A stretch of 34,186 nt of DNA, from assembly GCA_017514235.1 (NCBI GenBank), contig JAFWKK010000017.1:1-34186 (forward strand), written 5' to 3'. The notes below the pieces were generated by a model. The model made no database searches. It was not told the origin of the DNA and saw only the letters and a program-made list of their open reading frames with translations. This stretch comes from Kiritimatiellia bacterium (GTDB lineage: Bacteria; Verrucomicrobiota; Kiritimatiellia; RFP12; UBA1067). A program made the translations under genes and the position numbers. Shown here one piece after another: positions 3,957 to 25,168 of the stretch (the first letter of the stretch is position 1; each line of letters begins with the position of its first letter).

Positions 3957-3962
3957 TATAAT
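3957..3962 (+). promoter_or_regulatory. extended -10 promoter of the kinase gene
   Basis: TATAAT preceded by TTTGG gives a TGn extended -10. There is no good -35. Seven bases separate it from the GTG start at 3970, so the transcript would begin at or within about 1-2 nt of the start codon. Confidence 0.75.
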
Positions 3963-3969
3963 TGCGTAT

Positions 3970-5301
3970 GTGAACACGGCAGAAGAAAAGGAAGTTCACG
4001 TTAACTGCGGAAATTGGCGGCTTGACCGTGAAGTCGGACGCGGCGCGTATGGCGTTGTCTACATTGCGACAAACGGCAATGGCGAACGCGCGGCCGTGAA
4101 GGTCTGTCGCCGCGACGAATTCGGCGAGGAGCGCTACGGACGCGAGCTGCGCGGCGCAAGGCTCTACAACGCGATCCCACCGCAGGAGGGTCTCGTCCGC
4201 ATGCGTGAGCTAGCGGAGGAGTCGTGGGGCTTCTACGCGGTCATGGACCTTGCGGATGACGAGTTCAGCCGAGAGCCTTCGGAAGAGATGTCCTATCGCC
4301 CGAAGACTCTCGCCAGCGTCATCGAAGGCGAAAAGGCATTGCCGCTCGGCGAATGCGTCAAGCTCGGCATCTCGCTCGCGAACGGCCTCGTCGCGCTTCA
4401 GCGCCATCACCTGCTGCACCGTGACATAAAGCCTGGGAACGTGATTTACGTCGGTGGGCGTCCCGCTCTCTCCGATCCCGGACTTGTCGTCGAGGAGTCT
4501 AAGGCGGTGTCGATTGTGGGAACGCCTGGCTATCCTCCCCCAGAGGGCTTCACTGCTGCTCCAAGCGACGTATACAGCCTTGGCCTAACCTTAAAGGCCG
4601 CAAGCTTTGGCAGACGCCTTGAAGACTTGGACAAGGGCCCCGCCCTGGAGGCTGATACGGGCGCAAAATTCTTTCCCGCATGGTGGCGCATACTCAATAA
4701 AGCGACAGACAAGGACCCTCGCCGCCGCCACCAGTCAGCCAAGGCGTTGCTAAAAGAGCTCAAGGCGCTCCGCATCAAAATGGCATGTGCCAAATGCTCG
4801 TGGACATATAAAGCGGCAATAGGCGCTTTGCTCCTGGCCGCTGTTGCATATGCGTATGTGTCCTATCAGGAAAGAAAGCGGCTGGAAGCCGAAATCAAGC
4901 CCCTGAAACAAATCGTTTCCATCGCGCAATCTCTGAATGACATGTCGGCGCAGGATGACACTGCGTGGTCTTCGTTTTCCGGCTCGTATTTCTGTCGAAC
5001 GGACGAGTCTCACAGGCAAAGGCTTAGAAGAGTAGAGGAGAAGGATCCCGGTAGAGCCGCGACGATGCGCGGCATTCTCGACAAAATGCAGGAAATCGAC
5101 AAGAAAGGAGAGGAGAACAACCGTAGGATAAAAGCCCTGCGTGATCAAAACAGGAATAAAGGCGAGACGGGGAAAGGAGCTTCAGAGAGATACAATCAGG
5201 CGGAAATGCTTTCGATGGAAAATGAGAAACTTGTTAAGGCCTGGCTCTCCCTTCTCGACCGTTTTATAACGATAGAGGACGAGGTTAAGTTGAACAAATG
5301 A
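3970..5301 (+). CDS. membrane-anchored Ser/Thr protein kinase
   Basis: A 443-residue eukaryotic-like (Hanks-type) kinase that should phosphorylate Ser/Thr on partner proteins. Visible landmarks are the glycine loop GRGAYG at 23-28, ATP-anchoring K44 (AAVKV), catalytic HRDIKPGN at 150-157 (D152, N157), and a GTPGY activation/P+1 segment at 184-188. The Mg-binding DFG motif reads DPG (169-171); the Asp is kept, so activity is likely. After the kinase domain comes one membrane helix (~281-299) and a charged ~140-residue C-terminal region predicted to be coiled coil, presumably periplasmic. It lacks PASTA or WD repeats. The start is GTG 3970; the ATG at 3967 runs straight into TGA. There is no room for a ribosome site downstream of the promoter, so leaderless translation is likely. 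A prepilin cluster follows 78 bp later. Confidence 0.9.
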   Translation: MNTAEEKEVHVNCGNWRLDREVGRGAYGVVYIATNGNGERAAVKVCRRDEFGEERYGRELRGARLYNAIPPQEGLVRMRELAEESWGFYAVMDLADDEFSREPSEEMSYRPKTLASVIEGEKALPLGECVKLGISLANGLVALQRHHLLHRDIKPGNVIYVGGRPALSDPGLVVEESKAVSIVGTPGYPPPEGFTAAPSDVYSLGLTLKAASFGRRLEDLDKGPALEADTGAKFFPAWWRILNKATDKDPRRRHQSAKALLKELKALRIKMACAKCSWTYKAAIGALLLAAVAYAYVSYQERKRLEAEIKPLKQIVSIAQSLNDMSAQDDTAWSSFSGSYFCRTDESHRQRLRRVEEKDPGRAATMRGILDKMQEIDKKGEENNRRIKALRDQNRNKGETGKGASERYNQAEMLSMENEKLVKAWLSLLDRFITIEDEVKLNK

Positions 5302-5342
5302 CATGCAAGCACTTTTGCTTTAAAAGGGTTGTAATCGTGCCC

Positions 5343-5372
5343 TTGATTCGACGTCCGTATTCGTGATATAAT
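5343..5372 (+). promoter_or_regulatory. promoter of the prepilin cluster
   Basis: TTGATT (5343-5348), an 18-bp spacer, and TATAAT (5367-5372) with a TG extension (TGATATAAT). The ATG at 5380 starts after a 7-nt gap, so the message is predicted to be leaderless. An in-frame ATG at 5371 lies inside the -10 and cannot be used from this promoter. Confidence 0.8.
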
Positions 5373-5379
5373 GCGCATC

Positions 5380-5535
5380 ATGAAGGGACGGAAGCGAAGC
5401 GGGCAGGCGGCGCTGGAGTACGTGCTTGCGATGGCCTCGATGCTGGTGGTCACGGGAATCCTCTGGGTCTTCGCCCGCGCTGCGGTTCACCATGCCGAGC
5501 GCACGGAGAGCCTGGTGACCGCCGACTGCCCCTGA
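5380..5535 (+). CDS. 51-aa prepilin/pseudopilin-like protein
   Basis: A very short gene: a basic leader (M-K-G-R-K-R-S-G), then QAALE and a ~20-residue hydrophobic helix (about residues 13-35), then a short polar tail ending in Cys-Pro. A Gly just before the cleavage point, with Glu at +5 of the mature sequence, is the class III/type IVb prepilin-peptidase signature of Flp and TadE proteins. Four following genes start with the same G-Q-(A/T) pattern, which argues strongly that this small gene is real. It is probably a minor pilin or pseudopilin processed at the inner membrane. Its start sits 7 nt after a -10 element. Confidence 0.78.
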   Translation: MKGRKRSGQAALEYVLAMASMLVVTGILWVFARAAVHHAERTESLVTADCP

Positions 5536-5556
5536 GCAAACGAAAGGGAACAAGCC

Positions 5557-5775
5557 ATGATGAAGAGACTGAGAAAAGGCCAGACGATGGTGGAGTACAT
5601 AATCATCGTCGTGCTGATTGCCGTTTCCCTGATCACGGTGTTCACCTTCCTGAGCCGCGCGATCGGCAAGAAGGCAGCAGGCGCCACGGAGGCCCTTTCG
5701 AGCGAAGAGGGCCAGAAGGCCAAGAGCGCGGCGGACGCGATCAGCGAAGAAAAGATCAAGCAGCTGGGAGAGTGA
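5557..5775 (+). CDS. Flp-like type IVb pilin
   Basis: A 72-residue protein (71 if ATG 5560 is used). The leader ends in R-K-G and is followed by QTMVE, a hydrophobic helix (~13-33) and a polar Ala/Glu/Lys-rich tail of ~38 residues. This matches the size and plan of Flp/TadE-system major pilins: cleavage after Gly, Glu at +5, and a short mature chain. AAAGGGA (5543-5549) lies 7 nt before ATG 5557. It is the best candidate for the major subunit of whatever fibre or pseudopilus this cluster builds. The secretion ATPase, inner-membrane platform and prepilin peptidase are not in the window. Confidence 0.8.
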   Translation: MMKRLRKGQTMVEYIIIVVLIAVSLITVFTFLSRAIGKKAAGATEALSSEEGQKAKSAADAISEEKIKQLGE

Positions 5776-5776
5776 C

Positions 5777-6250
5777 ATGCCGTCGCGGGCCGGGCAAGCG
5801 GCGGTAGAGACGGTGCTGGCCGTCCTGATCGTCACTTCCGTCTTCCTCGTCCTGTTCAGGCTATCGCACCTGCTTACCGGCAAGATCCTCGCTGAACATG
5901 CGGCAATGCGCGTCGCCCGCGCCCGCGCCGTCGGCTTCAACGACTTCATGTGCCGCAAGGCCGCGCGCCTCTGCGTCATTCCAGTCGCGGGGAAACGGCT
6001 TTGGCCGGACGGCGACTCCGACAAGTTCGGCATCGCAGAAGAGCGGGCGAAGATGCGCACGTACCTCGAGTCGCCCGACGAGGCGAGGGCTCACGGGCTC
6101 CTCGAATACGAGGGCTGGAACAAGATGTCGGTCGATCCGGGCGACGGCGGTCAGTCCGTCGTGACGCTCAACACGGAATGGTTCAAGGTCGAGGGCAAGG
6201 CCGGTGTCGAAGGCAACAGTTCCTACTACATGGAAGGCGGCGGAAATTGA
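5777..6250 (+). CDS. TadE-like pseudopilin
   Basis: A 157-residue protein one base after the previous stop, with GGGAG (5766-5770) 6 nt upstream of ATG 5777. The short leader M-P-S-R-A-G is followed by QAAVE, a hydrophobic helix (~8-30) and a soluble domain of ~125 residues with two Cys (in MCRKAARLC). This is the plan of TadE/TadF minor pseudopilins, which help assemble Flp pili. Cleavage after G6 leaves Glu at +5. The TGA stop overlaps the TTG start of the next gene (TTGA). Confidence 0.78.
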   Translation: MPSRAGQAAVETVLAVLIVTSVFLVLFRLSHLLTGKILAEHAAMRVARARAVGFNDFMCRKAARLCVIPVAGKRLWPDGDSDKFGIAEERAKMRTYLESPDEARAHGLLEYEGWNKMSVDPGDGGQSVVTLNTEWFKVEGKAGVEGNSSYYMEGGGN

Positions 6251-7656
6251 AGACGTCGAGGGGACAGGCCGCGCTCTATCTCGTGATGGCGCTCGTCGGC
6301 ATCATGATGCTCGTGCTTGCAAACGTCGGCGCGTTCCTGTCCGTCCGCGCCAAGAACCGCGCAATGAACGCCGGCGACGCCGCCGCGCTCGCCGCCGCCC
6401 GCCGCCAAGCCGAGCTGCTGAACGAAATCGGACGTCTCAACCTCCGCCACGCCGAGGCCGACTACATAGGCGACCGCGTAGCGGCCCTCGACTGCATCGA
6501 ACGGCAGCGCCGCCTTGCTTTCCTCGGTCCGCTCGACTGCCTCCGCCGGGCGAACGCCGCCGCGAAGGACAACGGCGCGGAGCCCGACGAGGACATGGCC
6601 GGCATAATCCGCAAACACGCTTCCGACATACGCGAAAAGTACATGAACAACCCGGACCTCTATCCCGAGCCGTGGGAAGGCGCATGGGAAGAATATGCCT
6701 CCGAGCTTTCCGCAATCGCCGCCGACGGCGTCTGCGCCGGCTGCGACAACATCGACTTTGTCGACGCCGTCTCGTGCTTTCCGCTTACGCACAAGTCGTT
6801 CTATTCGGCAGTGGCAGGCGAGTCGTGGTGCAAGTTCGTCGTTGCCGGATGGGAATGGCTGCTCGACCGAGACTCCCACAACATGCCGGCTCCAGTTCCG
6901 GGCGTGACTGCCGCCGTCGTGAACGGTGAGTTCTGTTCGCTCCACCTGAAGGCGGAGCTGCTTGCGCTTGACGGCTCCGAAATGGCCTCCTTCCGCGAGT
7001 TTCTTTCGGCCAACGGCGCATCGTTCCCGCCGATGCAGGGCGTGCCTTTCGCGGCAGACAACCGTCCGCCCGACGATCCGTCGCGCATTTATTTCTTCTA
7101 CGACACGGAAGGCGTCTGGCGCCAGTGGATCGAGCTCGACCCGCAGTCGAAGTTCCACATGCCGCTCGCAGGCAAGGCCAAGCCCGAGTTCGACGTGCTA
7201 GGCTGCACGGCTGTGTTCCGCGTCACCGAAACGATGCCGAGGCTCCTTTCCGGCGACAGCACGACCGTCGCATGGAATGCCGCCGCCAAGCCCTTCGGCA
7301 CGATCGGGACTGTGGACGGCGTGTCACCCGTGACGCATGAAGAGGCGCGGGGGCTGGTTCTTCCGGCATACGAAGCCGTAAGGCTTATTCCGGTAGGCGC
7401 GGCGAACGCCGACGGGCTTGATCTCTCCACCGCCGACGCAAAATGGCTGGACCACGTGCGTGACCATGTGCCCGCGTACTGCGCTGAAGGCATCGGCGGC
7501 ATGTCCGCAGGGTGCGGCTACTGCGCCTGCCTGATGAAATGGGAAGATCCCGCGTACCGGGCAAGGGCGGCGGAGTGGATCGCGCGGAACGCCGAAACAT
7601 GCCGACGAGGTTCTGGAGGCAGCGGACCGACTGGAGGCACGTCGTATGCGCATTAG
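6247..7656 (+). CDS. TadG-like pilus-assembly protein
   Basis: A 469-residue protein with an N-terminal R-G-QAALYLV segment, a single membrane helix (~10-31), and then GDAAALAAA, a pattern typical of TadG-like proteins. A large soluble domain follows with several Cys pairs (CAGC, CGYCAC) that could form disulfides outside the cell. I chose TTG 6247 because it overlaps the upstream stop and puts the leader directly before the G-Q motif. The same frame stays open further upstream, but that part is the antisense-like shadow of the TadE gene. Residue +5 after the Gly is Tyr rather than Glu, so this member may be membrane-anchored and not cleaved. No von Willebrand domain was evident, unlike some TadG proteins. 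Confidence 0.72.
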   Translation: MKTSRGQAALYLVMALVGIMMLVLANVGAFLSVRAKNRAMNAGDAAALAAARRQAELLNEIGRLNLRHAEADYIGDRVAALDCIERQRRLAFLGPLDCLRRANAAAKDNGAEPDEDMAGIIRKHASDIREKYMNNPDLYPEPWEGAWEEYASELSAIAADGVCAGCDNIDFVDAVSCFPLTHKSFYSAVAGESWCKFVVAGWEWLLDRDSHNMPAPVPGVTAAVVNGEFCSLHLKAELLALDGSEMASFREFLSANGASFPPMQGVPFAADNRPPDDPSRIYFFYDTEGVWRQWIELDPQSKFHMPLAGKAKPEFDVLGCTAVFRVTETMPRLLSGDSTTVAWNAAAKPFGTIGTVDGVSPVTHEEARGLVLPAYEAVRLIPVGAANADGLDLSTADAKWLDHVRDHVPAYCAEGIGGMSAGCGYCACLMKWEDPAYRARAAEWIARNAETCRRGSGGSGPTGGTSYAH

Positions 7657-7921
7657 GGAAAGGGTCGTAAAGAGGCGCGGGCAGGCGCTGATGGAGCTGG
7701 CGGTCGGAATGTTCGCGCTTGCGCTCGTGGTGAGCGCGCTATGCGTCTTCGCGACGTACATCGTAAGGTCGCTTGAGGTGCAGAACTCGTTGCGGAGTTC
7801 TGCGCCGCAGATGAACAAGCCGGTAAAGGTAGATGACTTCGCGGTCAATCATTTCACGGGGCGCGACACGCTGAAGATGGACGAGAAGGCGGTGATGCCT
7901 CCGCTGGAGGTTACGAAATGA
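7646..7921 (+). CDS. 91-aa prepilin-like protein
   Basis: ATG 7646 overlaps the end of the TadG-like gene by 11 bp, and GGAGG (7633-7637) lies 8 nt upstream. A basic leader ends in R-R-G before QALME, followed by a hydrophobic helix (~17-38) and a ~50-residue polar tail. Glu at +5 after the Gly again marks a prepilin-peptidase substrate. It is the fifth consecutive protein with this N-terminus. Its stop overlaps the ATG of the aminopeptidase gene (ATGA). Confidence 0.75.
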   Translation: MRIRERVVKRRGQALMELAVGMFALALVVSALCVFATYIVRSLEVQNSLRSSAPQMNKPVKVDDFAVNHFTGRDTLKMDEKAVMPPLEVTK

Positions 7922-8931
7922 GAAGAGACGAGTTCATGAAGATGGCCGGGCGGCGTCGGCTCGACCAGACGCTGGTGTCCGGCGAGGCGAACGTGATGGC
8001 CCTGACAGGCATAAGATGCGACAATGCCGTCGTCACCAAAGACGCGTTCTACACCGATTTCCGCTATCTGCCGATGGTGCGGCGCATCGCTCCGCAAGGG
8101 CTTGCCGCGCGTGACATGCGAAAGCTCGCGGGAGCCATGCCGCGCCGCGCAGGAAGCCGCATCGGCTACGAGGCGTCGGTTCCGCACTCGCGCTTTCTCG
8201 AGCTGAAGAAGCTCGCGCCGCGCGCGACGTTCGTCGACATCTCAAAGGACCTCGCCGCGCTCCGCGCCGTGAAGACCGGCGAAGAGATCGCCGCCATTCG
8301 CGCGGCGGCCGCGCTCAACTGCGAGATATGGAACGAGGCCCGCGCCCGCTTCACTCCCGGCATGACCGAACGCCAGATGGCGCGCATCATCCAGACGCTG
8401 ATGGCTGAGCGCGGCGACGGCGAGGCGTTCTCCACCATCGTGTGCGTCGGCGCGAACGCCGCGGAGTGCCACCACGAGCCGGACGGCACGGTCTGGAACG
8501 GACGCGAACCGGTGCTGGTCGACATGGGCGTCAAGCTGAACGGCGTCTGCTCCGACATGACGCGCAACATCGTTCCGCCAAGGGCGCGTCCGATCTACCG
8601 CAAGGTCCACGACCTTGTGCTGCGGGCGAACCGAGCGGCGATTGCCGCCGCGAGGCCGGGCATGGCCGCGAAGGCGCTTGACAAGGTGGCGCGCGACGTG
8701 ATACGCGACGGCGGCTTCGGCAAGTGCTTCGGGCATTCGCTCGGACATGGCGTCGGCTACGAGATACACGAGGCGCCGGCGGTCTCCAAGCGCGGCGACA
8801 TGGTGCTGCGCGAGGGAATGGTGTTCACCATAGAGCCGGGCGTCTACCTTGAAGGCAACCTGGGCGTCCGCATAGAGGACCTGGTGCTGCTCACCGGAAA
8901 CGGCTGCGAGGTGCTTTCAGGCGGCTCCTGA
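7918..8931 (+). CDS. Xaa-Pro aminopeptidase (M24 family)
   Basis: A 337-residue cytoplasmic metallopeptidase that removes N-terminal residues preceding proline. The creatinase-like N-terminal domain spans ~1-115 and the pita-bread catalytic domain ~120-337. All metal ligands expected from the family are present: D202, D213, H277 (GHSLGHGVG), E306 (TIEPGVY) and E320 (RIEDLV); H284 is the usual second active-site His. Length is typical of the short PepQ/YqhT-like group. It is translationally coupled to the last pilin-like gene by ATGA. This may be simple operon packing rather than a functional link, since prepilins are cleaved by a different enzyme. Confidence 0.92.
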   Translation: MRRDEFMKMAGRRRLDQTLVSGEANVMALTGIRCDNAVVTKDAFYTDFRYLPMVRRIAPQGLAARDMRKLAGAMPRRAGSRIGYEASVPHSRFLELKKLAPRATFVDISKDLAALRAVKTGEEIAAIRAAAALNCEIWNEARARFTPGMTERQMARIIQTLMAERGDGEAFSTIVCVGANAAECHHEPDGTVWNGREPVLVDMGVKLNGVCSDMTRNIVPPRARPIYRKVHDLVLRANRAAIAAARPGMAAKALDKVARDVIRDGGFGKCFGHSLGHGVGYEIHEAPAVSKRGDMVLREGMVFTIEPGVYLEGNLGVRIEDLVLLTGNGCEVLSGGS

Positions 8932-8951
8932 CCGGGCGGTTGCAATTATGC

Positions 8952-8957
8952 TATAAT
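8952..8957 (+). promoter_or_regulatory. extended -10 promoter of the nifU-like operon
   Basis: TGC-TATAAT with no convincing -35 at the right spacing. Transcription would start near 8964, leaving a ~24-nt leader. AAAGGAG (8968-8974) lies 13 nt from ATG 8988, longer than the usual spacing. Confidence 0.7.
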
Positions 8958-8987
8958 ACGTCGGTCGAAAGGAGTTGACGGACAACA

Positions 8988-9209
8988 ATGGAAGAGAAAG
9001 TCAAGGAAATGCTCGAGCGGCTGCGGACCGGACTGCAGGCGGACGGCGGGGACCTCGAGTTCGTGGAGATGGAAGGCAAGGTCGTGCGGCTTCGGCTCGT
9101 CGGCCACTGCGGCAGCTGCCCGTTCGCCATGATGACCCTCAAGCAGGGCATCGAGGCCTCGCTCCGGGAGATCGACCCTGAGATCACTGTGGAGCGGGTT
9201 GAGGCATGA
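8988..9209 (+). CDS. NifU-like Fe-S scaffold domain protein
   Basis: A 73-residue stand-alone version of the NifU C-terminal domain, which holds and passes on [4Fe-4S] clusters. The CxxC motif sits in GHCGSCPFAMMTL at about residues 39-51. The protein has no N-terminal IscU-like or BFD-like domain, so it resembles NfuA-type or plant Nfu single-domain carriers. It overlaps the next gene, an oxidoreductase subunit, by ATGA. This suggests it supplies clusters to that complex or to ferredoxin partners, which is inference from position. Confidence 0.88.
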   Translation: MEEKVKEMLERLRTGLQADGGDLEFVEMEGKVVRLRLVGHCGSCPFAMMTLKQGIEASLREIDPEITVERVEA

Positions 9210-9799
9210 AGACCGTCAACGTGTCGCTCGTCGGCGTCGGCGGGCAGGGAATAATCCTTACGGCCGACATACTGGCCAAGACCGCCGCGCTCGCCGGCTA
9301 CGACGTCAAGAAGTCGGAGATACACGGCATGGCCCAGCGCGGCGGCTCCGTCACGAGCCAGGTGCGCTTCGGCGATACCGTCGCTTCTCCGATAATCCAG
9401 GAGGGGACGGCTGACGTGCTGGTTTCCTTCGACAAGCTGGAGGCCGTGCGCAACGCCGGCGTGCTGGCGGCGGACGGCGTTGCGCTTGTCAACGACCTGT
9501 ATCTCGTGCCGGTCACGGTATCATCCGGCCAGCAGCCTGCCGCCGAAGACCTCGACGGTCGTGTGCGCGGCGCGTTCGGTCGCCTTGTGATGCTCGACGC
9601 GATGAAGATCGCGGCGGAAGAAGCCGGCAACGCCCGCACTATGAACATGGTAATGGCGGGCGCGCTCTCGACGCTCTGCCCCTTCGGCGAGACCGACTGG
9701 CTGAAGGCGATGGAGGAGCTTCTCTCCGGACCGAAGGCCAAGCTGCTTGCCGTAAACGAGAAGGCGTTCCGGCTCGGCCGTGCGGCTGCCGGAGCCTGA
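9206..9799 (+). CDS. iorB: indolepyruvate ferredoxin oxidoreductase beta-like subunit
   Basis: A 197-residue protein with the 2-oxoacid:ferredoxin oxidoreductase gamma-type fold. It has the N-terminal glycine-rich GVGGQGI motif at 10-16, and SEIHGMAQRGG at about 37-47, characteristic of IorB. With IorA it would oxidatively decarboxylate aryl-pyruvates from aromatic amino acids, making acyl-CoA and reduced ferredoxin. Its usual partner iorA (the TPP and Fe-S subunit) is not adjacent. The neighbours are a NifU-like scaffold upstream and thiE, for a TPP-precursor enzyme, downstream. That set is suggestive, since the complex needs both Fe-S clusters and thiamine diphosphate. Confidence 0.85.
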   Translation: MKTVNVSLVGVGGQGIILTADILAKTAALAGYDVKKSEIHGMAQRGGSVTSQVRFGDTVASPIIQEGTADVLVSFDKLEAVRNAGVLAADGVALVNDLYLVPVTVSSGQQPAAEDLDGRVRGAFGRLVMLDAMKIAAEEAGNARTMNMVMAGALSTLCPFGETDWLKAMEELLSGPKAKLLAVNEKAFRLGRAAAGA

Positions 9800-9802
9800 G
9801 GC

Positions 9803-10423: not shown

Positions 10424-10469
10424 CCGCCGGCCAGTCCGCTCGGCGAAACGGCTTCGGAGTGCCGTGCAG

Positions 10470-10491
10470 TGCGCGATGACGTGCAATTTTT
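10470..10491 (+). terminator. intrinsic terminator after thiE, overlapping the next promoter
   Basis: TGCGCG (10470-10475) pairs with CGTGCA (10480-10485), one pair being G-U, around an ATGA loop. ATTTTT follows. The T-run is immediately followed by GATATAAT, so the terminator tail is also the upstream part of the ABC-exporter promoter. The stem is short and efficiency is probably modest. Confidence 0.55.
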
Positions 10492-10493
10492 GA

Positions 10494-10499
10494 TATAAT
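10494..10499 (+). promoter_or_regulatory. extended -10 promoter of the glycan-export operon
   Basis: TTTTTGATATAAT: an extended -10 (TGA-TATAAT) after a T-run. ATG 10511 lies 11 nt after the -10, so the leader is only about 5 nt with no ribosome-binding site. Confidence 0.75.
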
Positions 10500-10510
10500 A
10501 GCAGCCTAAT

Positions 10511-12460
10511 ATGGCGCTGGAATACAAGAAAGAGTTTTTCGACCGCAACTATACGGTCCGGGAGGCCTATTCGCGGGCGTGGGGCTATGCGCGCAAATAC
10601 AAGTTCCGCATTTTCGTCGGCATCGTCTGCGGGATGCTGACGGCCGGCACGCTGGTGCCGCTCTTCCAGGTCATACAGCCGGCCTTGCAGCAGGCCAGCG
10701 CCAACGAGCGCGAGGCAGAGGTTGCGACGGAAGCGGCCGCAGCGGCCCCTCAGGGCGAGAGGCGGCTCACGCCGATGGAGCGCAAGGTGGCGAAGGCGGC
10801 GACGCTGCCCAGCTGGTATCCGAAGGTGGAGCGGGTGGCGAAGCGGTGCGGAATCGAGCTGCAGGACAAGAGCGGCGCGATGGGCGGAGCCCTGCTGCTG
10901 ATTGCGGTCGTGGTCATTCCGCTGTTGGCGGCGGTGCGGCTTCTTCTCATCTTCCTCAACCAGTACTGCCTGTGCTGGGCGGCCACGCGTGCCGTTACCG
11001 ACCTGCGCGTGGACCTCTTCCGGCAGATACAAAGGCAGTCTCTCCAGTTCCACGGGCGCATCGACGTGGGGCAGCTGATGATGCGTGCGGTAGGCGACCC
11101 GTCGACCGTGCAGATGATGATACAGTCGATGCTCTCGCAGCTGGCGCGCGCACCGTTCGAGATTCTCGCCGCAGTCGCGTTCATCGTCCATTTCGCGATC
11201 CAGAACCACATGCTGGCGACTCTCGGAGTGATCGTGATCGGCATGCCGGCGTTCATGTTCCCCGTGGTCGGGCTCGGGAAGCGCATCCGCGCCTGGAGCC
11301 GCAAGTCGCTTGAGAAAGGCACGGTCGTCGGCAGCCATCTGCACGAGGTTCTGACGTGCGTCCGCGTCGTCAAGGCGTTCGGCACCGAGGAGTTCGAGAA
11401 CCGCCGCTACGAGAGCGTCAACCGCCGGCTGCTCAGCACAATAATGAGGGCCTTCCGCTGGGGGCTGTTCGTTGGGCCGACGGTGGAGACGATAGGGATC
11501 GTCATACTCTGCGGCTTTCTCGTCTGGTGCTTCATGGCCCGCGTCACGCTGGCGAACGTGCTGCCGATGCTGGCGCCGCTGCTCCTCATCTACAAGCCCG
11601 TGAAGCAGCTGTGCAGCCTGCAGGTCTCGCTCGAGACGGCGCAGGCGTCGCTGCAGAGGATCTGGTCGCTGATGGACCTCGACATGGAGATGCCCGAATC
11701 TCCGGACGCCGCGCCGAAGGCCAGCTTCGACGACCGTATAGTGTTCAACGACGTGTCGTTCCGCTACGAGGGCGCCGACCGCGACGCGGTGAGCCACGCG
11801 AGCTTCGAGGTGGAGAAAGGGCGGACGGTCGCGGTCGTCGGCGGCACGGGCAGCGGCAAGTCCACGCTTTCCGGCCTGCTCTGCCGGTTCTTCGACCCGC
11901 AGTCTGGCTGCGTCACGATGGACGGCCGCGACCTGCGCGAGATGCGCACGGCGGACCTGCGCGCCCTGATCGGCTCGGTGCAGCAGGAGACGCTTCTCTT
12001 CAACGAGACCATCGAGGCGAACATCAGCTACGGGTCGCCAGGCGCTACGCACGAGCAGGTCGTGGCTGCGGCGAAGATGGCGAACGCGCACGAGTTCATA
12101 ATGTCGCAGCCGGAGGGCTATGACCGCGTCGTCGGGGAGAAGGGCTTTTCGCTGTCGGGCGGCGAGCGCCAGCGAATCGCCATCGCCCGCGCCATCTTGC
12201 GCAATCCGCCGATACTCATCCTCGACGAGGCGACGAGCGCGCTCGACACGGTTACGGAGCGGCTCGTGCAGGACGCGATCAACAACCTGATGGCCAACCG
12301 CACGACGTTCGCGATCGCCCACCGCCTTTCGACGATACGCAACGCCGACCTCATTCTCGTCATGGACCGCGGGCGTATCGTCGAGCGCGGCACCCATGAT
12401 GAGCTATACGCCGCAGACGGCGTCTACCGCCGGCTCTGCGACATGCAGACTACAGCCTGA
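10511..12460 (+). CDS. MsbA-like ABC exporter (fused permease and ATPase)
   Basis: A 649-residue half-transporter that would dimerise in the inner membrane to flip lipid A, a lipid-linked glycan or another amphipath. The first membrane helix is at ~32-56. An unusual ~65-residue charged Ala/Glu/Arg/Lys insert (~62-126) separates it from helix 2 (~127-150) and would lie in the periplasm. Further helices run to ~385. The nucleotide-binding domain has Walker A GGTGSGKST near 443-451, the LSGGE signature near 547-551, and Walker B ILILDEATSAL just after. It is followed at one base by glycosyltransferase, acyltransferase and ATP-grasp genes. This points to a surface-glycan or lipid-linked intermediate as cargo, but MsbA homologues in such positions can also be generic. 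The start is near-leaderless. Confidence 0.9.
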   Translation: MALEYKKEFFDRNYTVREAYSRAWGYARKYKFRIFVGIVCGMLTAGTLVPLFQVIQPALQQASANEREAEVATEAAAAAPQGERRLTPMERKVAKAATLPSWYPKVERVAKRCGIELQDKSGAMGGALLLIAVVVIPLLAAVRLLLIFLNQYCLCWAATRAVTDLRVDLFRQIQRQSLQFHGRIDVGQLMMRAVGDPSTVQMMIQSMLSQLARAPFEILAAVAFIVHFAIQNHMLATLGVIVIGMPAFMFPVVGLGKRIRAWSRKSLEKGTVVGSHLHEVLTCVRVVKAFGTEEFENRRYESVNRRLLSTIMRAFRWGLFVGPTVETIGIVILCGFLVWCFMARVTLANVLPMLAPLLLIYKPVKQLCSLQVSLETAQASLQRIWSLMDLDMEMPESPDAAPKASFDDRIVFNDVSFRYEGADRDAVSHASFEVEKGRTVAVVGGTGSGKSTLSGLLCRFFDPQSGCVTMDGRDLREMRTADLRALIGSVQQETLLFNETIEANISYGSPGATHEQVVAAAKMANAHEFIMSQPEGYDRVVGEKGFSLSGGERQRIAIARAILRNPPILILDEATSALDTVTERLVQDAINNLMANRTTFAIAHRLSTIRNADLILVMDRGRIVERGTHDELYAADGVYRRLCDMQTTA

Positions 12461-12461
12461 C

Positions 12462-17771: not shown

Positions 17772-17777
17772 ATTCTA
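17772..17777 (-). promoter_or_regulatory. extended -10 promoter of hydF
   Basis: On the minus strand the sequence reads TGG-TAGAAT, an extended -10. Transcription would start near 17765, giving a ~75-nt leader to GTG 17690. It is divergent from the rubrerythrin promoter 30 bp away, so the two could be co-regulated. Confidence 0.6.
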
Positions 17778-17805
17778 CCATATTTTCCAGGCGGGCGGGC
17801 TGCTG

Positions 17806-17834
17806 TTGACTACGTGCGGCGCAAATGGTAATAT
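17806..17834 (+). promoter_or_regulatory. rubrerythrin promoter
   Basis: TTGACT (17806-17811), a 17-bp spacer, and TAATAT (17829-17834), with TGG before the -10. This is the best complete -35/-10 pair in the window and fits a strongly expressed gene. Confidence 0.7.
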
Positions 17835-17870
17835 TTGTGAAACACGGAACGAAAGAAGGAGAACCCAAGC

Positions 17871-18404: not shown

Positions 18405-19381
18405 GCTTCGGTACGCCCGGAGCCGCGACACTTGTCCAGCAGCTGCCGTATGCGGCGTAGGTTGCGGCGGGCGGCAAAGTCGTGGAAAGGCGCCGTCAGC
18501 GGTTCGCTCGGCGGCGTCTGCCCGACGGCATGCATCGCTTCGTGGTAGAGGCGGCGGTAGGGGCGGTGGCTCTTCAGCCAAGGTTTCTTCGGTCCCCAGA
18601 AATGGAGAATGGCAGGCTCCAGCGCCGCCTCCAGGCATTCCTGCGGCGGATTCCCGAGCCAGTACTTGTCGCGCACGTCCCACTTCGCGAAGCTCTTGAT
18701 CAGCCGGTCGTGGAAGTTCCACTTGAGCGGCAACAGCCGTGTCCGTTGCCAGTACAGCGCGTTCCACGCGTCCTGCTCGATGCGGTCGGCGATGCCGTAA
18801 TGCCCGCGATACCACTCCAGTATCCGCTCCCACGTGCGTTCCTCGCGGCACCTCGCGACGTTGAAGACAAGCGTTCCCGTGTTGAAGTAGCGCTCCGCCT
18901 CCGGCGGCAGTATGCCGTCGCTCCAGATGCGCGACTCGACGGCTCCGCCGCCGCGATGGTACTCCGCGACGGCGGCGATCAGGCAGTCGCCAAGGTCGGT
19001 CTCGAAGAGCGGGGAGATGTCGGTTGCGACGAGCATGTCGATGTCGAGATGGATTACGTTGCCTGCTGCGTCCGGCAAGAGTGCAGGCACGAAAACCGGA
19101 GTCCAGGTGAATACGTTCCACCGCGATCCGGCACGGTTCATTATGAGGTCGGCGTAAGGCGCGACCGCAGGTTCCGCGTCGACATGGCGCACCGAGGCGT
19201 TCGGGAAACGCGCGACGACTTCGGCGAGCTTCCGCTTGCTTTCGGGGGAGTGTCCGCCAAAACCCTCGAACACGTTGACGCGGATCGGCTCAGAGCCCCG
19301 ATAGTTGGAAAGCAGCGACCACACGGTGACGCAAAGGAACTTCGCGCCCCTGTCGTCGCAGCTGAACACCACGTCCCTCAC
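18401..19381 (-). CDS. family 8 glycosyltransferase
   Basis: A 326-residue retaining glycosyltransferase related to LPS galactosyl/glucosyltransferases (RfaI/RfaJ-like). The N-terminal VVFSCDDRG contacts the nucleotide sugar, and the metal-binding DxD is D113-I-D115 in HLDIDML followed by ATDISPLF. The C-terminal part has the HFWGPKKPW-like segment with His and Lys used by GT8 enzymes. The start is GTG 19381: GAGGAGGG sits 5 nt upstream and the GTG overlaps the stop of a 34-codon ORF (GTGA). It is the last gene of the minus-strand operon and converges on rubrerythrin with a 4-bp overlap. Confidence 0.88.
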
Positions 19382-19482
19382 GCGGCCCTCCTCAAGTCTG
19401 CTTTCAGCGTTTCCTTACGCATGTTGCACTTCATCAGGTACTGGTGCCTTTGCATTTCCGATCCCTGCGGCAGCAAGCGCAT
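19378..19482 (-). CDS. candidate 34-aa small protein between dtd and GT8
   Basis: ATG 19482 lies 2 nt after the dtd stop, and the TGA (19380-19378) overlaps the GT8 GTG start (GTGA). The predicted product is basic, with Met/Gln/Leu-rich content, two short amphipathic helical stretches and a single Cys. No membrane segment or family was recognised. Only a weak GGTGA precedes the ATG. The perfect operon-like spacing on both sides suggests it is translated, either as a small protein or to couple dtd to GT8. The alternative is untranslated linker DNA. Confidence 0.45.
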   Translation of the reverse strand: MRLLPQGSEMQRHQYLMKCNMRKETLKADLRRAA

Positions 19483-19484
19483 TT

Positions 19485-19946
19485 TCACCGTTGAGCCTTG
19501 TCGCCGGACGTCAGTTCGACTGAAAACGGACCGTCGTTGACGAGCCGCACCTTCATTTCTGCGCCGAAGCGGCCGGTGCCTACGCGATCGCGCCCCAGCC
19601 GCTCGCGGAGCTTTTCCGCCACGCGTTCGTAGAGCGGCTCCGCGACGGGGCGCGGCGCGGCGGCCGAGTAGCCGGGACGTCGCCCGTGCGCAGTGTCGGC
19701 GTAGAGCGTGAACTGCGAGACAAGCATGACGCTGCCGCCGACGTCCTCCACCGACAGGTTGGACTTTCCGTTCGCATCCTCGAATATCCGCAGCGTGGCG
19801 ATCCGGGCGGCGATGTCGTCGGCCTCGCGAGCGGTGTCGGAGTGCGTTACGCCGAGCAGCACCAGGAACCCGGTGCCGATCGACGCCAGAGTCTCGTCTC
19901 CGACCGTAACGCTTGCCTCCGAAACGCGCTGCACCCAAGCCTTCAC
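19485..19946 (-). CDS. dtd: D-aminoacyl-tRNA deacylase
   Basis: A 153-residue cytoplasmic proofreading enzyme that hydrolyses D-amino acids (and Gly) mischarged on tRNA. The start region [13 protein letters not shown] is the family N-terminus, and the SQFTL active-site segment is near residue 80. The C-terminal motif that is usually NxGPVT reads NDGPFS; the key Gly-Pro is kept. GTG 19946 is preferred to TTG 19961: it follows the GntP stop by 4 nt and a GGGG ribosome site lies ~7 nt upstream. It sits between a permease and a glycosyltransferase with no obvious functional tie. Confidence 0.9.
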
Positions 19947-19950
19947 GCCG

Positions 19951-21216
19951 TCACCCCGCAATCATGTAGACGAGCGTCGACACCGCCGTCGTCGTCGCGC
20001 CGACCAGTTCGCCGAACGGGAAGAGCCGCAGCCGGTCCTTTACGCTCATGCCGACGGCGCCTGCGGTCGCGTGGAAGAAGCTGCCGTGAGGGAGCGCGTC
20101 GAAGACCGTGCCGCCCGCATGGAGCATCGCGGCCGCCGCGGTGGCCGGCACGCCGGCCGAAAGCAGCGTGCCGGAAAACGTCTGGGCCGCTATGGTGACG
20201 CCGGCCGTGGTGGACGCCGTCGCGCCGGAGAGCAGCAGCCCTGAGACCGGGGCCAGGGCGAAGACGGGCAGGTGGCACGCGCCCAGCAGGCGGATCATGT
20301 CGGCATTGAGGCCAGACGCCTTGACGATTCCCGCCACTGTGCCGGTTCCTATCAGCAGCACCGAGACGCCGATGACCTTGGAAAGGCCGAACTCCGAATA
20401 TTCGACCGTCTGGCGCCAGCGTCCGCAGGCAAGGATGGAGACCAGTCCGCCGGCCGGAAGAGCAACGAGCGGATCGATCGTGACGCCGCAGACGGGGCGG
20501 AGGGCGAGCAGCGCGATGACGACGAGCGGACCGGACGCCGCCTGCGCGGCGGACGGCAGCTTTGCCGCGCAGGACGCCGCCTCGGACAGCGACGAAGCGC
20601 AACTGGTCCATCTCTTCGCAAGCCACGTCGAAAGCGCCACCGTCACGGCGAACGCGCACGCGGCGGGCAGCAGGTTCGCGGCCATGACGGACGTAAGGTC
20701 CAGATGGAACGCCTCTGCGACTGCGATCGTGTTGGGGTTGGGGGAGATGACGTTTCCAGCCTTTCCCCCGCCGATCATGGCGAGCAGGAGCGCCGGCACC
20801 GGAATGCCGGCTTTGCGCCCCACGGCCAGCGCGACCGGGGCGACCGTGATGACGGCGATGTCGACGAACACGCCGACCGACGTTACGATTAGCGTCGCGA
20901 GCGCCACAGCCGCGAGCGCGAAGCGCGTGCCGAGGCGGGCGACCACGGCGTCGGCTATTTTCGCCGCGCTGCCGGTCTTGACGAGTGCGCCGACCAGCAC
21001 GCCTGAGGCGAGGATGCGCAGCACCGACGGCATCATCGACTGCGTTCCGGAAATCATCGCGGCGACCGTCCCGGAAAGCCCGCCGCCGCCAAGAAGCCCG
21101 CCGACGAGGGCGCCTAGGACGAGCGCATAGGCCGGGGTCGCCTTCCGCACGATCAGCACGATCGCCACGGCCAGGCCCGCAAGGGCGCCCCACGTCGAGA
21201 ACACGGCCTCCGTCAC
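19951..21216 (-). CDS. GntP-family permease
   Basis: A 421-residue inner-membrane transporter with about 11-12 hydrophobic helices. Family hallmarks include GVFVDIAVI near the middle of the first half, [17 protein letters not shown], and a C-terminal [13 protein letters not shown]. Members take up gluconate or related hydroxy acids with protons; substrate cannot be read from sequence, and glycerate-type acids are possible. GTG 21216 overlaps the upstream symporter stop (GTGA) and is preceded by GGGAGGAGAC. Upstream open frame beyond this start is a shadow of the symporter gene. Confidence 0.88.
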
Positions 21217-22388
21217 GTCTCCTCCCTGCGGCGGCCGCGGTAGATGCGGTCGACGATGATCGCGATCGCGCCGTCGCCGGTCAGGTTGCAGGCGGTGCCC
21301 ATGCCGTCCAGGGCCATGTACGTCGCTATGACGAGGGCGTAGCGTTCCGGCGTGAAGCCGAGAATCGTCTCGGCTATGGTCGCGGACGCCAGCACCACGC
21401 CGCCGGGTATGCCGGGTGACGCCACGGCTATGACGCTTAGCACGAACATGAACTCGATGTACCTGACGATTGAGATATCGCCGCCGAAGAGGACCGTGAA
21501 CCCGGCCGTGTAGACGACCATGTTCGCCATAGACCCGGCGAGGTGCACGTTGGCGCAAAGCGGAATCACGAGGTCCACGATCTTGTCGGAGACGCCGTTC
21601 TTGCGCGTCTGGCGGAGCGTGACCGGCAGCGTCGCGGCGGAGGAGCAGCACCCCCAGCCGGTCAGGTACGCCGGAAGCATGTTCAGGAGCGCCTTGAACG
21701 GGTTCTTGCCCGCGAAGACGCCTGCGACGGCGTACTGCATGACCAGCACGAGGGACGTCACGCCGAAGGCGACGCCCATGATCGCGACGCAGCTTCCGCC
21801 GACGACAGCGAGCTTGCCGCTGGCAGTCAGGTCTGCTATGACGGAGAGTATGTAGAACGGAAGGAGCGGCAGGAACGCCTTGCTGATCGTCAGCGTCACC
21901 GTCTCGCGCATCTCGGCGAACGTGCGTTTCAGCGTCGGCGCGTCGAGCTTTACCATCGCAAGGCCGAAGATGAAGGCCGTCACGAGGGCCGAGGTGATGC
22001 CCATCACCGGCGGTATCTCCAGTATGAAGTAAGCAGGAAACGTCTGCACCTGCGAGGCCGCGTCGAGCGTGCCGTGAAGGACGCGCGGGAAGATGGCGTC
22101 GGACGCGCAGAACGCAAACGCGCCGGAGAACAGCGTCGACGCGTAGGCTATGCCCATCGTCACCAGCAGCATCCTTCCCGCGCCCACGCCAGTCTCCGCG
22201 ATGGCGGGGGCCACCAGCCCCAGCACTATGAACGGCACGAAGAACCTGATGAACTGGCCGAACGTGCCGCTGAAACAGTTTAGGGCGCGTATCACGCAAC
22301 TTGGCGCAACGGCGCCGACTGCCGCACCGATGGCGATGGCAAGAAACAGCCTCGGGAGAATGCCTATCTTGATTCCTCTCTTGAACAT
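21213..22388 (-). CDS. dicarboxylate/amino-acid:cation symporter (DAACS family)
   Basis: A 391-residue sodium- or proton-coupled transporter for C4-dicarboxylates, glutamate/aspartate or serine/threonine. About eight to ten hydrophobic segments are visible, plus a GWGCCSSAATLPVT hairpin-like segment (the Ser-rich HP1 of GltPh-type transporters), a central PLCANVHLAGSM, and NLTGDG near the C-terminus. The NLTGDG follows the DGxxTxxNxxGD pattern that binds substrate. ATG 22388 lies exactly 7 nt after a TATAAT, so the message is predicted to be leaderless. The in-frame start at 22430 is upstream of the promoter and is rejected. Confidence 0.88.
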   Translation of the reverse strand: MFKRGIKIGILPRLFLAIAIGAAVGAVAPSCVIRALNCFSGTFGQFIRFFVPFIVLGLVAPAIAETGVGAGRMLLVTMGIAYASTLFSGAFAFCASDAIFPRVLHGTLDAASQVQTFPAYFILEIPPVMGITSALVTAFIFGLAMVKLDAPTLKRTFAEMRETVTLTISKAFLPLLPFYILSVIADLTASGKLAVVGGSCVAIMGVAFGVTSLVLVMQYAVAGVFAGKNPFKALLNMLPAYLTGWGCCSSAATLPVTLRQTRKNGVSDKIVDLVIPLCANVHLAGSMANMVVYTAGFTVLFGGDISIVRYIEFMFVLSVIAVASPGIPGGVVLASATIAETILGFTPERYALVIATYMALDGMGTACNLTGDGAIAIIVDRIYRGRRREET

Positions 22389-22395
22389 GGCGCAT

Positions 22396-22401
22396 ATTAT
22401 A
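22396..22401 (-). promoter_or_regulatory. extended -10 promoter of the symporter-GT8 operon
   Basis: On the minus strand: TTTATGGTATAAT, then 7 nt, then ATG. The element is TGG-TATAAT with no recognisable -35. It would drive five coupled genes (symporter, GntP, dtd, 34-codon ORF, GT8). Confidence 0.75.
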
Positions 22402-22522
22402 CCATAAAGGAGAGCAGTCCTGCGCGGCATGAAAATCTACACGTTCTGCACGGCTATATCCCGTTGTCGTTGCCTGAAGATCCCGTTGCGCCCCTGTGCA
22501 AGCGAATCCGTCGGCGTGTGGC

Positions 22523-22564
22523 AAAAAAAAATAAAAAATGAAATCCGAGGCGCGGGGCCCCGGA
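22523..22564 (-). terminator. intrinsic terminator on the minus strand with no clear gene upstream
   Basis: Read on the minus strand, TCCGGGGC (22564-22557), a CCCGC loop and GCCTCGGA (22551-22544) form an 8-bp stem with one G-U pair. TTTCA, then T6, A and T8 follow (22543-22523). This is the most convincing intrinsic terminator in the window. It faces away from DUF58 and lies upstream of the symporter promoter, so it must end some transcript that starts at higher coordinates. Confidence 0.8.
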
Positions 22565-22783
22565 CTCATTCAAGGTTATTCAGAAAGAACTTTAATGAAA
22601 TCTTTGGACTTCCGATCGGATCGCTGCGGCCGTTTGTTTCCGCTCCCCGTTCCTCCATCCAGTTGAGTGTATGCGGCGGTGACAATCCAATGACAGAAAA
22701 ATTTTCATATTTTTTTGCAGCCAGACGCATTTACAAAAACCAAGTTTGATATTTCCAAGAAATTCATTGATTAACGGTCTTTT
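22523..22783 (-). ncRNA. candidate small RNA of ~260 nt
   Basis: This is inferred, not recognised. A possible promoter (22819-22790, minus strand) and the strong terminator at 22523-22564 bracket about 260 nt of AT-rich sequence without a credible reading frame. No known RNA family was identified. It could instead be the remnant of a lost gene. Confidence 0.3.
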
Positions 22784-22865
22784 TTCATAATTTAACCAAT
22801 TTCTAATTCCAATGCCCAAATCAATAATGTCGCAGGGGCATTTGTCGTGGAGCCTTCGTTTTTGC

Positions 22866-22871
22866 TATAAT
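22866..22871 (+). promoter_or_regulatory. extended -10 promoter of the DUF58 operon
   Basis: TTTTTGC-TATAAT: a T-run followed by an extended -10. Transcription near 22878 gives a ~19-nt leader ending in AAGGAG, which directly abuts the ATG at 22897. Confidence 0.7.
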
Positions 22872-22896
22872 TCCCCCACAAGCGGGAACTAAGGAG

Positions 22897-23787
<891 letters not shown>

Positions 23788-23791
23788 GCGT

Positions 23792-24700
23792 ATGACGTGC
23801 CTGCTCATAGCTGCGGCCGTCCTTGAGATGAGCCGGAACGGAGTCGACTTCAAGATCGATGCCGACAGGACGCAGGTCGATCCTGCGCGGAGCGTGTTCC
23901 TGCGCGTCGAGCTGAAGGCGCCGTCCGACCGCAAGGCGACGCTGCCGGACCTGCGGGACCGCGTGCAGGGCTTCTCGCTGGCCGAGGAGTTCGCCGAGGA
24001 GCCGAAGACGGAGAACGACGGCTCGCAGACGCAGGTCATGAACTGGAGGCTGCTTCCGGAGCCTTGCGCGCCGGTCTACAAGATCCGTCCGTTCGTGGTG
24101 AAGGTCTCGCCGAAGCTTCTTTCGGCCCGTTCCGACGAGGGGAAGTACTCGTTCGTTGCAGGCCCGGTCCGTTTCGACCCGCCGTCCGCGCGTGAGCCGG
24201 TCACGGGCGCAATGGAGTGCGACCCGAAGCGCGACCTTCCTCCGCTCTCGTGGAAGCTTGTGGGCTGGCTCTCGCTGGCGCTTGTCGGGATCGCCGCGGC
24301 AGTCGCCGCCGCCGCCGTGCTGGCCCGTTATGCGGCCCGGCGCATACGCGAACATCGCATGAGCCCTATCGAGCGTGCCTGGGCAGAGCTCGACCGGCTG
24401 CTGAAGAAGGGCCTTCCCGGCCGGGGAAGGTACAAGGACTTCTACGTCGAGCTCACGATGGTCGTCAGGCGGTACATACAGCGCAAGTACGGCATCAGCG
24501 CTCCGCACATGACGACCGAGGAGTTCCTTCGCACCGCCAAGCCGTCGGACGAGCTGCGCCGTTTCCTGGAATCGGCCGACATGGTCAAGTTCGCCGGCGT
24601 CGAGGCAACCCCTGACATGGCCGACGAGGCCACGGAGTCTGCGCGCGGCTACCTGAAGAGCGACGCCGCGGCGTCCGCGCCCTCGTCCAAGGCGGATTGA
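23792..24700 (+). CDS. BatD/DUF4381-like membrane protein
   Basis: A 302-residue protein with a weakly hydrophobic N-terminus, a beta-rich domain (~15-150), one membrane helix (~153-177), and a cytoplasmic tail. The tail pattern (SPIERAWAELDRLL, then YKDFYVELTMVVRRYIQRKYG, TTEEFL, ADMVKFAG) resembles the C-terminal part of DUF4381 and BatD-like proteins of MoxR-DUF58 operons. The beta domain would sit outside the inner membrane and the tail would contact DUF58 or MoxR partners. It is much shorter than classic BatD (~500+ residues). It ends 3 nt before an intrinsic terminator. Confidence 0.72.
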   Translation: MTCLLIAAAVLEMSRNGVDFKIDADRTQVDPARSVFLRVELKAPSDRKATLPDLRDRVQGFSLAEEFAEEPKTENDGSQTQVMNWRLLPEPCAPVYKIRPFVVKVSPKLLSARSDEGKYSFVAGPVRFDPPSAREPVTGAMECDPKRDLPPLSWKLVGWLSLALVGIAAAVAAAAVLARYAARRIREHRMSPIERAWAELDRLLKKGLPGRGRYKDFYVELTMVVRRYIQRKYGISAPHMTTEEFLRTAKPSDELRRFLESADMVKFAGVEATPDMADEATESARGYLKSDAAASAPSSKAD

Positions 24701-24702
24701 GA

Positions 24703-24733
24703 CGCGGCCGGCCCGGTGCCGCGCGATTTTTTT
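24703..24733 (+). terminator. intrinsic terminator of the DUF58 operon, fused to the next promoter
   Basis: CGCGGC (24703-24708) pairs perfectly with GCCGCG (24718-24723) around a 9-nt loop, then CGA and T7 (24727-24733). The T7 leads straight into TTTGGTATAAT, so the terminator tail and the next promoter share bases. Confidence 0.75.
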
Positions 24734-24735
24734 GG

Positions 24736-24741
24736 TATAAT
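24736..24741 (+). promoter_or_regulatory. extended -10 promoter of the 24752 gene and transporter operon
   Basis: T7-GG-TATAAT, an extended -10 after a T-run. ATG 24752 follows after 10 nt, leaving a leader of about 4 nt and no ribosome-binding site. Confidence 0.75.
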
Positions 24742-24751
24742 ATGTGCTGAC

Positions 24752-25168
24752 ATGGCAGAAGAAGAGAAACCCGATTCCTGGCGTGCGCCCGTGCCGGTCC
24801 TGGCGAAGGTCTTGACTGGCATCGCCTGGTTTTGGACGGCGTACGAGTGCGACACCATAGGCATCGACGTATTTGACATGCTCCTGAAGCGCTTCCCCGG
24901 CCAGCTCTGGATCATGGCGGCTGTGCTGACCTGGCTTACGATAATATGGATGCCGAAGAACCTCCTGACGCGCTCCGTGATGGGCCTGTTCATGCTGCTT
25001 CCGGCGGAACTCTTCCGCGTGACGCGTCCGTTGCTGCCCGAAAGCGGGTTCGCGCCAGTGCAGATCGTCGTCGCGATCGCCTACGTCCTTGCCGTGATCG
25101 GCATGTACGGCATGTTCTACCCGTGGCGCATAGAGGCGGCGCTAAAGTGGGTGCTTAGGCGCAAATGA
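24752..25168 (+). CDS. small multi-pass membrane protein, hypothetical
   Basis: A 138-residue protein with about three to four hydrophobic segments (roughly 18-40, 50-68, 75-90 and 104-124) and a basic C-terminus, consistent with an inner-membrane protein. I do not recognise a family. The start is near-leaderless: ATG 24752 comes 10 nt after the -10. The stop overlaps the phosphate-transporter ATG (ATGA), so the two are coupled and it might be an accessory membrane subunit; that is inference from position only. Confidence 0.75.
   Translation: MAEEEKPDSWRAPVPVLAKVLTGIAWFWTAYECDTIGIDVFDMLLKRFPGQLWIMAAVLTWLTIIWMPKNLLTRSVMGLFMLLPAELFRVTRPLLPESGFAPVQIVVAIAYVLAVIGMYGMFYPWRIEAALKWVLRRK

Follow-up and report, generated by a model that had tools for sequence, protein, structure and literature searches.

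Leaderless genes have been reported as common in Actinobacteria and in Deinococcus-Thermus (PMC3160421, PMC12340547), their messages being read through initiator tRNA or 70S particles that engage the 5'-terminal start codon (PMC10783764, PMC12340547), and 21.6% of bacterial species have been predicted to use them (PMC9581028, citing GeneMarkS-2 work). In Deinococcus radiodurans, a -10 box lies about 6-7 bp upstream of the open reading frame in nearly one third of genes, beside genes led by Shine-Dalgarno (SD) sequences, and that box was shown there to act as a -10 region (PMC12340547). A similar layout is the subject of this report, which concerns a stretch of DNA from a Kiritimatiellia bacterium (hereafter the window: the first 34,186 bases of contig C5, JAFWKK010000017.1, in a 3.96-Mb draft genome of 82 contigs, GCA_017514235.1) and an extended -10 box, TGNTATAAT, that stands a few bases before the start codons of several of its genes. 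An initial annotation of the window had pointed to five such genes and proposed that leaderless initiation, confined to the first genes of transcription units, is a habit of this lineage.

In a sample of the genome this box falls into two spacing classes relative to the start codon, it is spread over the order to which the organism belongs, and its short spacing persists among some orthologues of the window genes. From these patterns we consider it very probable that, in the short-gap genes, transcription would start at, or within about 2 bases of, the AUG, from a promoter whose -10 element is extended and whose -35 element is weak. In the whole genome TGNTATAAT occurs 545 times versus 11 times for the pattern read backwards, and TATAAT followed after 6 to 8 nucleotides by ATG (TATAATN{6,8}ATG) occurs 221 times versus 10 times backwards and 62 times at the longer spacing N{16,18} (221 versus 62, binomial p = 4e-22); these whole-genome counts include contig C2, which holds few of the listed matches. 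At the same short spacing GTG was found 45 times and TTG 34 times (79 together, versus 32 backwards). Composition predicts about 28 ATG, 44 GTG and 28 TTG there, an estimate that scales the 125 TATAAT counted in 625 kb to the whole genome, so that GTG and TTG lie near expectation and the excess is almost wholly one of ATG.

Gene-level counts were made in a sample of 625 kb (the window plus further fetched stretches, with contig C2 left out) whose guanine-plus-cytosine (GC) content is 61%. Genes were predicted with a simple home-made codon-usage caller, which yielded 424 genes with an upstream neighbour, genes having none on their own stretch being left out. Exact boxes served as the seed of a position weight matrix, which settled on AWTTWTGGTATAAT; above a cut-off score of 11 it matched 180 places in the sample versus 24 in the reversed sequence. 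We counted a gene as boxed when such a box lay between 200 nt before and 60 nt after its predicted start with an in-frame start codon behind it, and we measured the gap from the box to the first in-frame ATG, GTG or TTG at a distance of at least 4 nt; the gene starts used here are thus predicted ones.

By these rules 119 of the 424 genes are boxed, and their gaps separate into two groups: 53 genes at gaps of 4-12, 63 at gaps of at least 18, and only 3 at 13-17, all of these at 16-17 and none at 13-15. Relative to an even spread over gaps of 4-40, the range 13-17 holds too few genes (p = 4e-4) and the range 6-8 too many (p = 1.5e-13). The sharp genome-wide peak that the initial annotation had anticipated is present, with 8, 18 and 8 of the boxed genes at gaps 6, 7 and 8, and 7 nt is indeed the mode; its wording of exactly 7 nt was overstated, as the short class spans 4-12 (3 genes at 4, 1 at 5, 4 at 9, 7 at 10, and 2 each at 11 and 12). 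An SD match scoring at least 4 precedes 46 of the 63 genes with gaps of at least 18 versus 3 of the 49 with gaps of 6-12, a scarcity that is partly automatic because at the short gaps the box itself occupies the SD position. Start codons at gaps of 6-8 are 30 ATG, 4 GTG and no TTG, a zero that carries no claim since few TTG are expected, and those at gaps of 9-12 are 11 ATG, 2 GTG and 2 TTG. A same-strand neighbour less than 40 nt away is found for 10 of the 49 genes with gaps of 6-12, for 4 of the 63 leadered genes and for 187 of all 424. Short-gap boxes are thus associated with more than first genes alone, and one of the window genes considered below, that starting at 24752, lies only 51 nt behind a same-strand gene. 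The accompanying statement that genes inside operons have SD sequences describes 103 of 186 such genes, the remainder being without one at their unrefined starts.

The form of the box is that of a promoter element. In the sample, TGn stands directly before 85 of the 125 TATAAT, and in 100 strong boxes, themselves partly selected for TG, the two TG columns hold T at 0.98 and G at 0.99. The place of the -35 element shows a weak T (0.47) in these 100 boxes, and TTGACA with at most two mismatches is found 11 times at a spacing of 17, 9 times at 18, 6 times at 16 and at 19, and 1-7 times elsewhere. The usual distance from a -10 box would place the start of transcription 7-8 nt past TATAAT. The base before the start codon is a pyrimidine in 8 of 8 genes at gap 6, 14 of 18 at gap 7, 4 of 8 at gap 8 and 30 of the 63 leadered genes; pooling gaps 6 and 7, a group picked after the counts had been seen, gives 22 of 26 versus 30 of 63 (Fisher p = 0.002). 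Under the pyrimidine-purine (YR) rule (PMC4782308), transcription that begins with the A of AUG should leave a pyrimidine in this place at gaps 6-7.

On the reading that we favour, one strong promoter type, AWTTWTGGTATAAT, with an extended -10 and a weak -35 element, would serve many genes, RNA polymerase opening the DNA at the box and beginning the message some 7-8 nt beyond it. For the 34 of 119 boxed genes with gaps of 6-8, the 5' end of the message would fall on AUG (rarely GUG) or within about 2 bases of it; the 15 of 119 with gaps of 9-12 would have some 2-5 bases of leader. Such messages would have no room for an SD sequence, and the ribosome presumably recognises them by the initiator tRNA together with the start codon at the 5' end. 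At gaps of at least 18 (63 of 119), the same promoter would give a leader at least about 11 nt long, with the SD match noted above in 46. A gap of 13-17 would imply a leader of about 6-10 nt, which is short for an SD sequence and long for a 5'-AUG. Where transcription starts, which sigma factor acts and how the ribosome binds are the parts of this reading that we infer.

The five sites from which the question arose were all correctly placed by the initial annotation, and the three spacings of exactly 7 nt and the two of 10-11 nt that it gave were recovered unchanged. With at most one mismatch, TGNTATAAT is matched 15 times in the window (8 of them exactly), versus 3.6 +/- 2.1 times in shuffled windows, where the largest count was 11. 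A chance origin of the five box-start sites is ruled out by these shuffles together with the genome-wide backwards and spacing controls. On the plus strand, a box reading TGGTATAAT (3954..3962, score 24.3) lies 7 nt (tgcgtat) before the GTG at 3970 of a serine/threonine-kinase-like gene (3970..5301), which would be leaderless; this GTG is the first ATG, GTG or TTG in frame past the upstream stop. A second plus-strand box, TGATATAAT (5364..5372, score 15.3), lies 7 nt (gcgcatc) before the ATG at 5380 of a 51-codon prepilin-like gene (5380..5535), likewise read as leaderless, and a third, also TGATATAAT (10491..10499, score 25.1), lies 11 nt before the ATG at 10511 of an ABC exporter gene (10511..12460, plus strand). 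On the minus strand, TGGTATAAT (22396..22404, score 22.4) lies 7 nt (atgcgcc) before the ATG at 22388 of a symporter-like membrane protein gene (21213..22388), and, again on the plus strand, TGGTATAAT (24733..24741, score 22.3) lies 10 nt before the ATG at 24752 of a small membrane protein gene (24752..25168). The names kinase, prepilin, ABC exporter and symporter come from the initial annotation, kinase, prepilin and ABC exporter also from the look of the sequence, and they are taken here as presumptive. Another ATG lies in frame with the prepilin-like gene at 5371, overlapping the -10 box, and only a message from a promoter further upstream could make use of it.

We evaluated relatives of the window genes for persistence of the short gap, taking 30 loci of the ABC exporter (the window's included) and 30 of a leadered NifU-like gene of the window out of more matches listed, with only the best box of each stretch considered. 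Among boxed relatives of four leaderless genes, window copies excluded, 11 of 24 have the box at a gap of 6-10, with gap sequences that differ (ABC exporter 2 of 4, symporter 5 of 8, small membrane protein 3 of 5, kinase 1 of 7). None of 12 boxed relatives of the NifU-like gene has it at a short gap, and 10 of these 12 show a GGAG- or AAAGG-like motif by eye. Both counts were made by hand from the rows listed, and since the four families were chosen for their leaderless window copy, the comparison (11 of 24 versus 0 of 12, Fisher p = 0.006) speaks to persistence rather than frequency. In these counts the NifU relative L251 (score 11.0, box on an SD-like stretch, gap 3) was not taken as boxed; for the NifU relative L239 the aligned ATG at gap 38 was taken and an in-frame TTG at gap 11 passed over, and for relative L138 an in-frame TTG at gap 2 was passed over.

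The individual families give this persistence its detail. The ABC exporter has its box at gaps of 7 and 6 from the corresponding ATG in two genomes of the genus, where the intervening bases do not resemble the window's 11 nt; 25 of the 30 loci have no box scoring above 11 in that position. Boxed relatives and paralogues of the symporter have it at gaps of 6, 6, 9, 9 and 6 in five of eight cases, in a family found in only 7 of 59 genomes, the window's own included. For the small membrane protein, the gaps are 8, 8 and 9 in three genomes of the genus; in the same family, two genomes from other genera have gaps of 26 and 27 and SD-like leaders.

These alignments bear on the possibility that the true starts lie further downstream and are led by SD sequences, the ATG beside the box being there by chance or mis-called. 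A later in-frame start within 60 nt that has an SD match of at least 5 does exist in 4 of the 49 genes with gaps of 6-12, whose starts are predicted ones, yet this rate is no higher than that among the SD-leadered genes (8 of 46). In the two ABC-exporter orthologues just mentioned, the box-adjacent ATG is aligned to residue 1, and the next in-frame start of the window's copy is 41 codons on; behind the GTG at 3970 it is 42 codons on; and the genome-wide excess of 221 over 62 requires an ATG at that very spot. We therefore judge mis-placed starts to be a very unlikely explanation of the short gaps.

The same box also heads leadered genes within the window. Three of its eight exact boxes, which the initial annotation does not mention, stand before genes with leaders of 23-30 nt, all on the plus strand: TGCTATAAT at 8949..8957, 30 nt before the ATG at 8988 of the NifU-like gene (so named by its look); TGCTATAAT at 22863..22871, 25 nt before the ATG at 22897; and TGGTATAAT at 31108..31116, 23 nt before the ATG at 31140 of a gene that looks adenylosuccinate-lyase-like. 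The SD score reaches at least 4 in one of the three, the gene at 31140, where AAGGAAGG lies 6 nt before the ATG. These three boxes indicate that the box is a general promoter here, the leaderless spacing being one of its two uses. That every boxed gene should be leaderless is ruled out by them together with the 63 leadered genes among the 119 of the sample.

Box use at both distances speaks to a further alternative, in which an upstream promoter makes longer messages with some other ribosome signal, and the box acts in translation or serves as a minor internal promoter. Ribosome binding can be helped by AT-rich sequence ahead of a start codon, which counts for this alternative. So does the case of Deinococcus, where the same question needed experiment to settle (PMC12340547). 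Set against it, the box that heads SD-leadered genes at larger distance has the same TG and the same upstream T, a pattern suited to a promoter rather than to a signal for the ribosome, and the weak -35-like T stands at the right spacing. An upstream promoter as the source of these messages thus appears highly improbable to us.

Some features of the three leadered loci are observations in their own right. The leader of the gene at 8988 has an AAAGGAG that ends 13 nt before the ATG, an unusually long SD spacing, and that of the gene at 22897 has an AAGGAG that abuts the ATG, which is also unusual. The adenylosuccinate-lyase-like protein (31140-32501) has its nearest named relative, at 83% amino-acid identity, in a Kiritimatiellae metagenome-assembled genome from yak caecum (L001), and most of the next best among the 80 matches listed are gammaproteobacterial, at about 57-61% identity. 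This ranking suggests gene transfer. A blastn comparison of L001 with the window gave no match outside this gene.

To survey the spread of the arrangement, we counted TATAATN{6,8}ATG (near) and the same pattern with N{16,18} (far) in each genome, and a genome passes if near is at least twice far at p < 0.01. In the order (96 genomes), near and far total 6277 and 2529 and 50 genomes pass. In the rest of the class (48 genomes sampled) they total 1609 and 1667 (0.97), with 2 of 48 passing, and elsewhere in the phylum (130 genomes) 5716 and 5526 (1.03), with 2 of 130 passing. A class- or phylum-wide habit in this form is ruled out by these two ratios, a ratio near 1 denoting no excess with this exact box and leaving room for leaderless genes with another box. 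Both passing genomes of the 130 (40/11 and 37/18) belong to one genus, f30/g41, whose 17 genomes show a mild near excess of 713 over 498. In the yak-caecum record L001, TGNTATAAT occurs five times, and in three cases an ATG follows after 8 nt. Within the window's family (f1), passing genomes make up 22 of 23 in the window's own genus, 7 of 7 in g2 and 2 of 2 in g110. The two gap classes recur in a second family, f2, where four genomes of genus g4 (400 kb, 265 genes, with a retrained matrix) gave 45 boxed genes, 15 of them at gaps of 6-12, none at 13-17 and 30 at gaps of at least 18.

This distribution, together with the controls, also bears on whether the spacing might be a functionless by-product of AT-rich intergenic sequence or of assembly contamination. 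The assembly is a draft of 82 contigs, and its contig C2 (107 kb, 16.8% GC in the 100 kb read, versus 59-64% in the other fetched contigs) looks foreign; it is probably foreign DNA binned into the genome, perhaps, at a guess, from an anaerobic gut fungus. However, C2 was excluded from the gene counts and contributes little to the whole-genome ones, the backwards and N{16,18} controls have the same composition as the pattern counted, and the excess is repeated in about half of the genomes of the order and almost never in the rest of the class and phylum. A by-product or contaminant origin of the spacing therefore seems to us extremely improbable.

A number of observations weigh against the proposal of initiation at the AUG, and we gather them here. 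The position of the transcription start is drawn from the usual -10 distance, and the pyrimidine signal, beyond the hindsight in its pooling, is missing at gap 8. Genes with gaps of 9-12 would not be strictly leaderless, and 4 of the 49 short-gap genes offer the later SD-led start described above. A search of this assembly for the 16S rRNA, whose anti-SD tail was of interest, did not find it. Among the relatives, only the one kinase in seven noted above is boxed at a short gap, and two others, L218 and L220, have gaps of 14 and 16, in the range that is nearly empty elsewhere; most relatives of the small membrane protein align from about residue 17, its first 16 residues not being common, so that the start codon is not the same. 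The survey is uneven, with passing counts by family of 33 of 49 (f1), 11 of 17 (f2), 4 of 6 (f53), 2 of 19 (f4), 0 of 3 (f3) and 0 of 2 (f52), and within f1 none of the 7 genomes of genera g109, g3 and g108 passes. One g3 genome (G101, L192-L211) has no TGNTATAAT in 374 kb and 16 TATAAT, and a scan of it with the degenerate pattern TGnTA[ATC][ACT][ACT]T gave no excess and 1 ATG at gaps of 6-8; it yielded only 2 seeds for a matrix of its own, and its promoters seem to be different. The retrained f2 matrix is also noisier, with 120 forward versus 29 backwards matches.

Taken with these points, the proposed habit of leaderless initiation stands as one of the lineage, carried by the genome-wide short-gap excess, the two gap classes, their repeat in a second family, the orthologues and the surveys, and falls as a general one, as 63 of the 119 boxed genes have gaps of at least 18. 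A broader interpretation, which we offer tentatively and with some doubt, is that one promoter element feeds two translation routes, that the route is inherited with the gene, some families tending to remain leaderless and others SD-led from genus to genus, and that leaders of about 6-10 nt are selected against. If so, the distance from box to start would be a switch readable from the genome, marking two gene classes that differ in their dependence on initiation factors and on stress. As genera within a single family differ so unevenly and few genes occupy gaps of 13-17, the cost of short leaders could be tested comparatively, and the rule of AWTTWTGGTATAAT, then 6-8 nt, then ATG could be used to correct gene starts in genomes of the order. 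The proposal would also extend widespread leaderless initiation to a further bacterial lineage.

Compared with described systems, the box combines likenesses and differences. In promoters with an extended -10 (TGn, and TRTGn among Gram-positive bacteria), a TG stands one base before the hexamer and a T two bases before the TG, and the -35 element is weak. The TG, the upstream T and the weak -35 are present here too; the difference is that this form was recovered in a high-GC genome, in a search aimed at this form alone. Akkermansia muciniphila belongs to the same phylum and to another class. Cappable-seq of mouse caecum found about 10% of its mapped starts to be leaderless, and those starts were measured, whereas the starts here are predicted from sequence (PMC4782308). 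The likeness to Deinococcus lies in the spacing and in the coexistence with SD-led genes, and the difference in the box, which is TANNNT, mostly TACACT, in that phylum (PMC12340547) and mostly TGnTATAAT with an upstream T in this one. Deinococcus boxes were used poorly by E. coli (PMC12340547), which may likewise make poor use of extended -10 boxes that lack a -35. In another comparison, a TA-like signal about 10 bp upstream is taken as the mark of leaderless genes, such TA-led genes making up about 20% of Actinobacteria genes, and a TG before the box, as here, is reported for Lactococcus (PMC3160421). The high-GC groups in that work have a degenerate TAnnnT, unlike the strict TATAAT found here at 61% GC, and the section that lists leaderless groups names no Verrucomicrobia, Lentisphaerae or Kiritimatiellae (PMC3160421). 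An earlier report of leaderless genes in Kiritimatiellae was not found in the parts of the open literature that were searched. The GeneMarkS-2 study (Lomsadze 2018) may cover some such genomes. Leaderless genes are therefore a known phenomenon, and the seemingly new elements are the lineage, an extended box that is strict in spite of high GC, and the clear separation of the two spacing classes.

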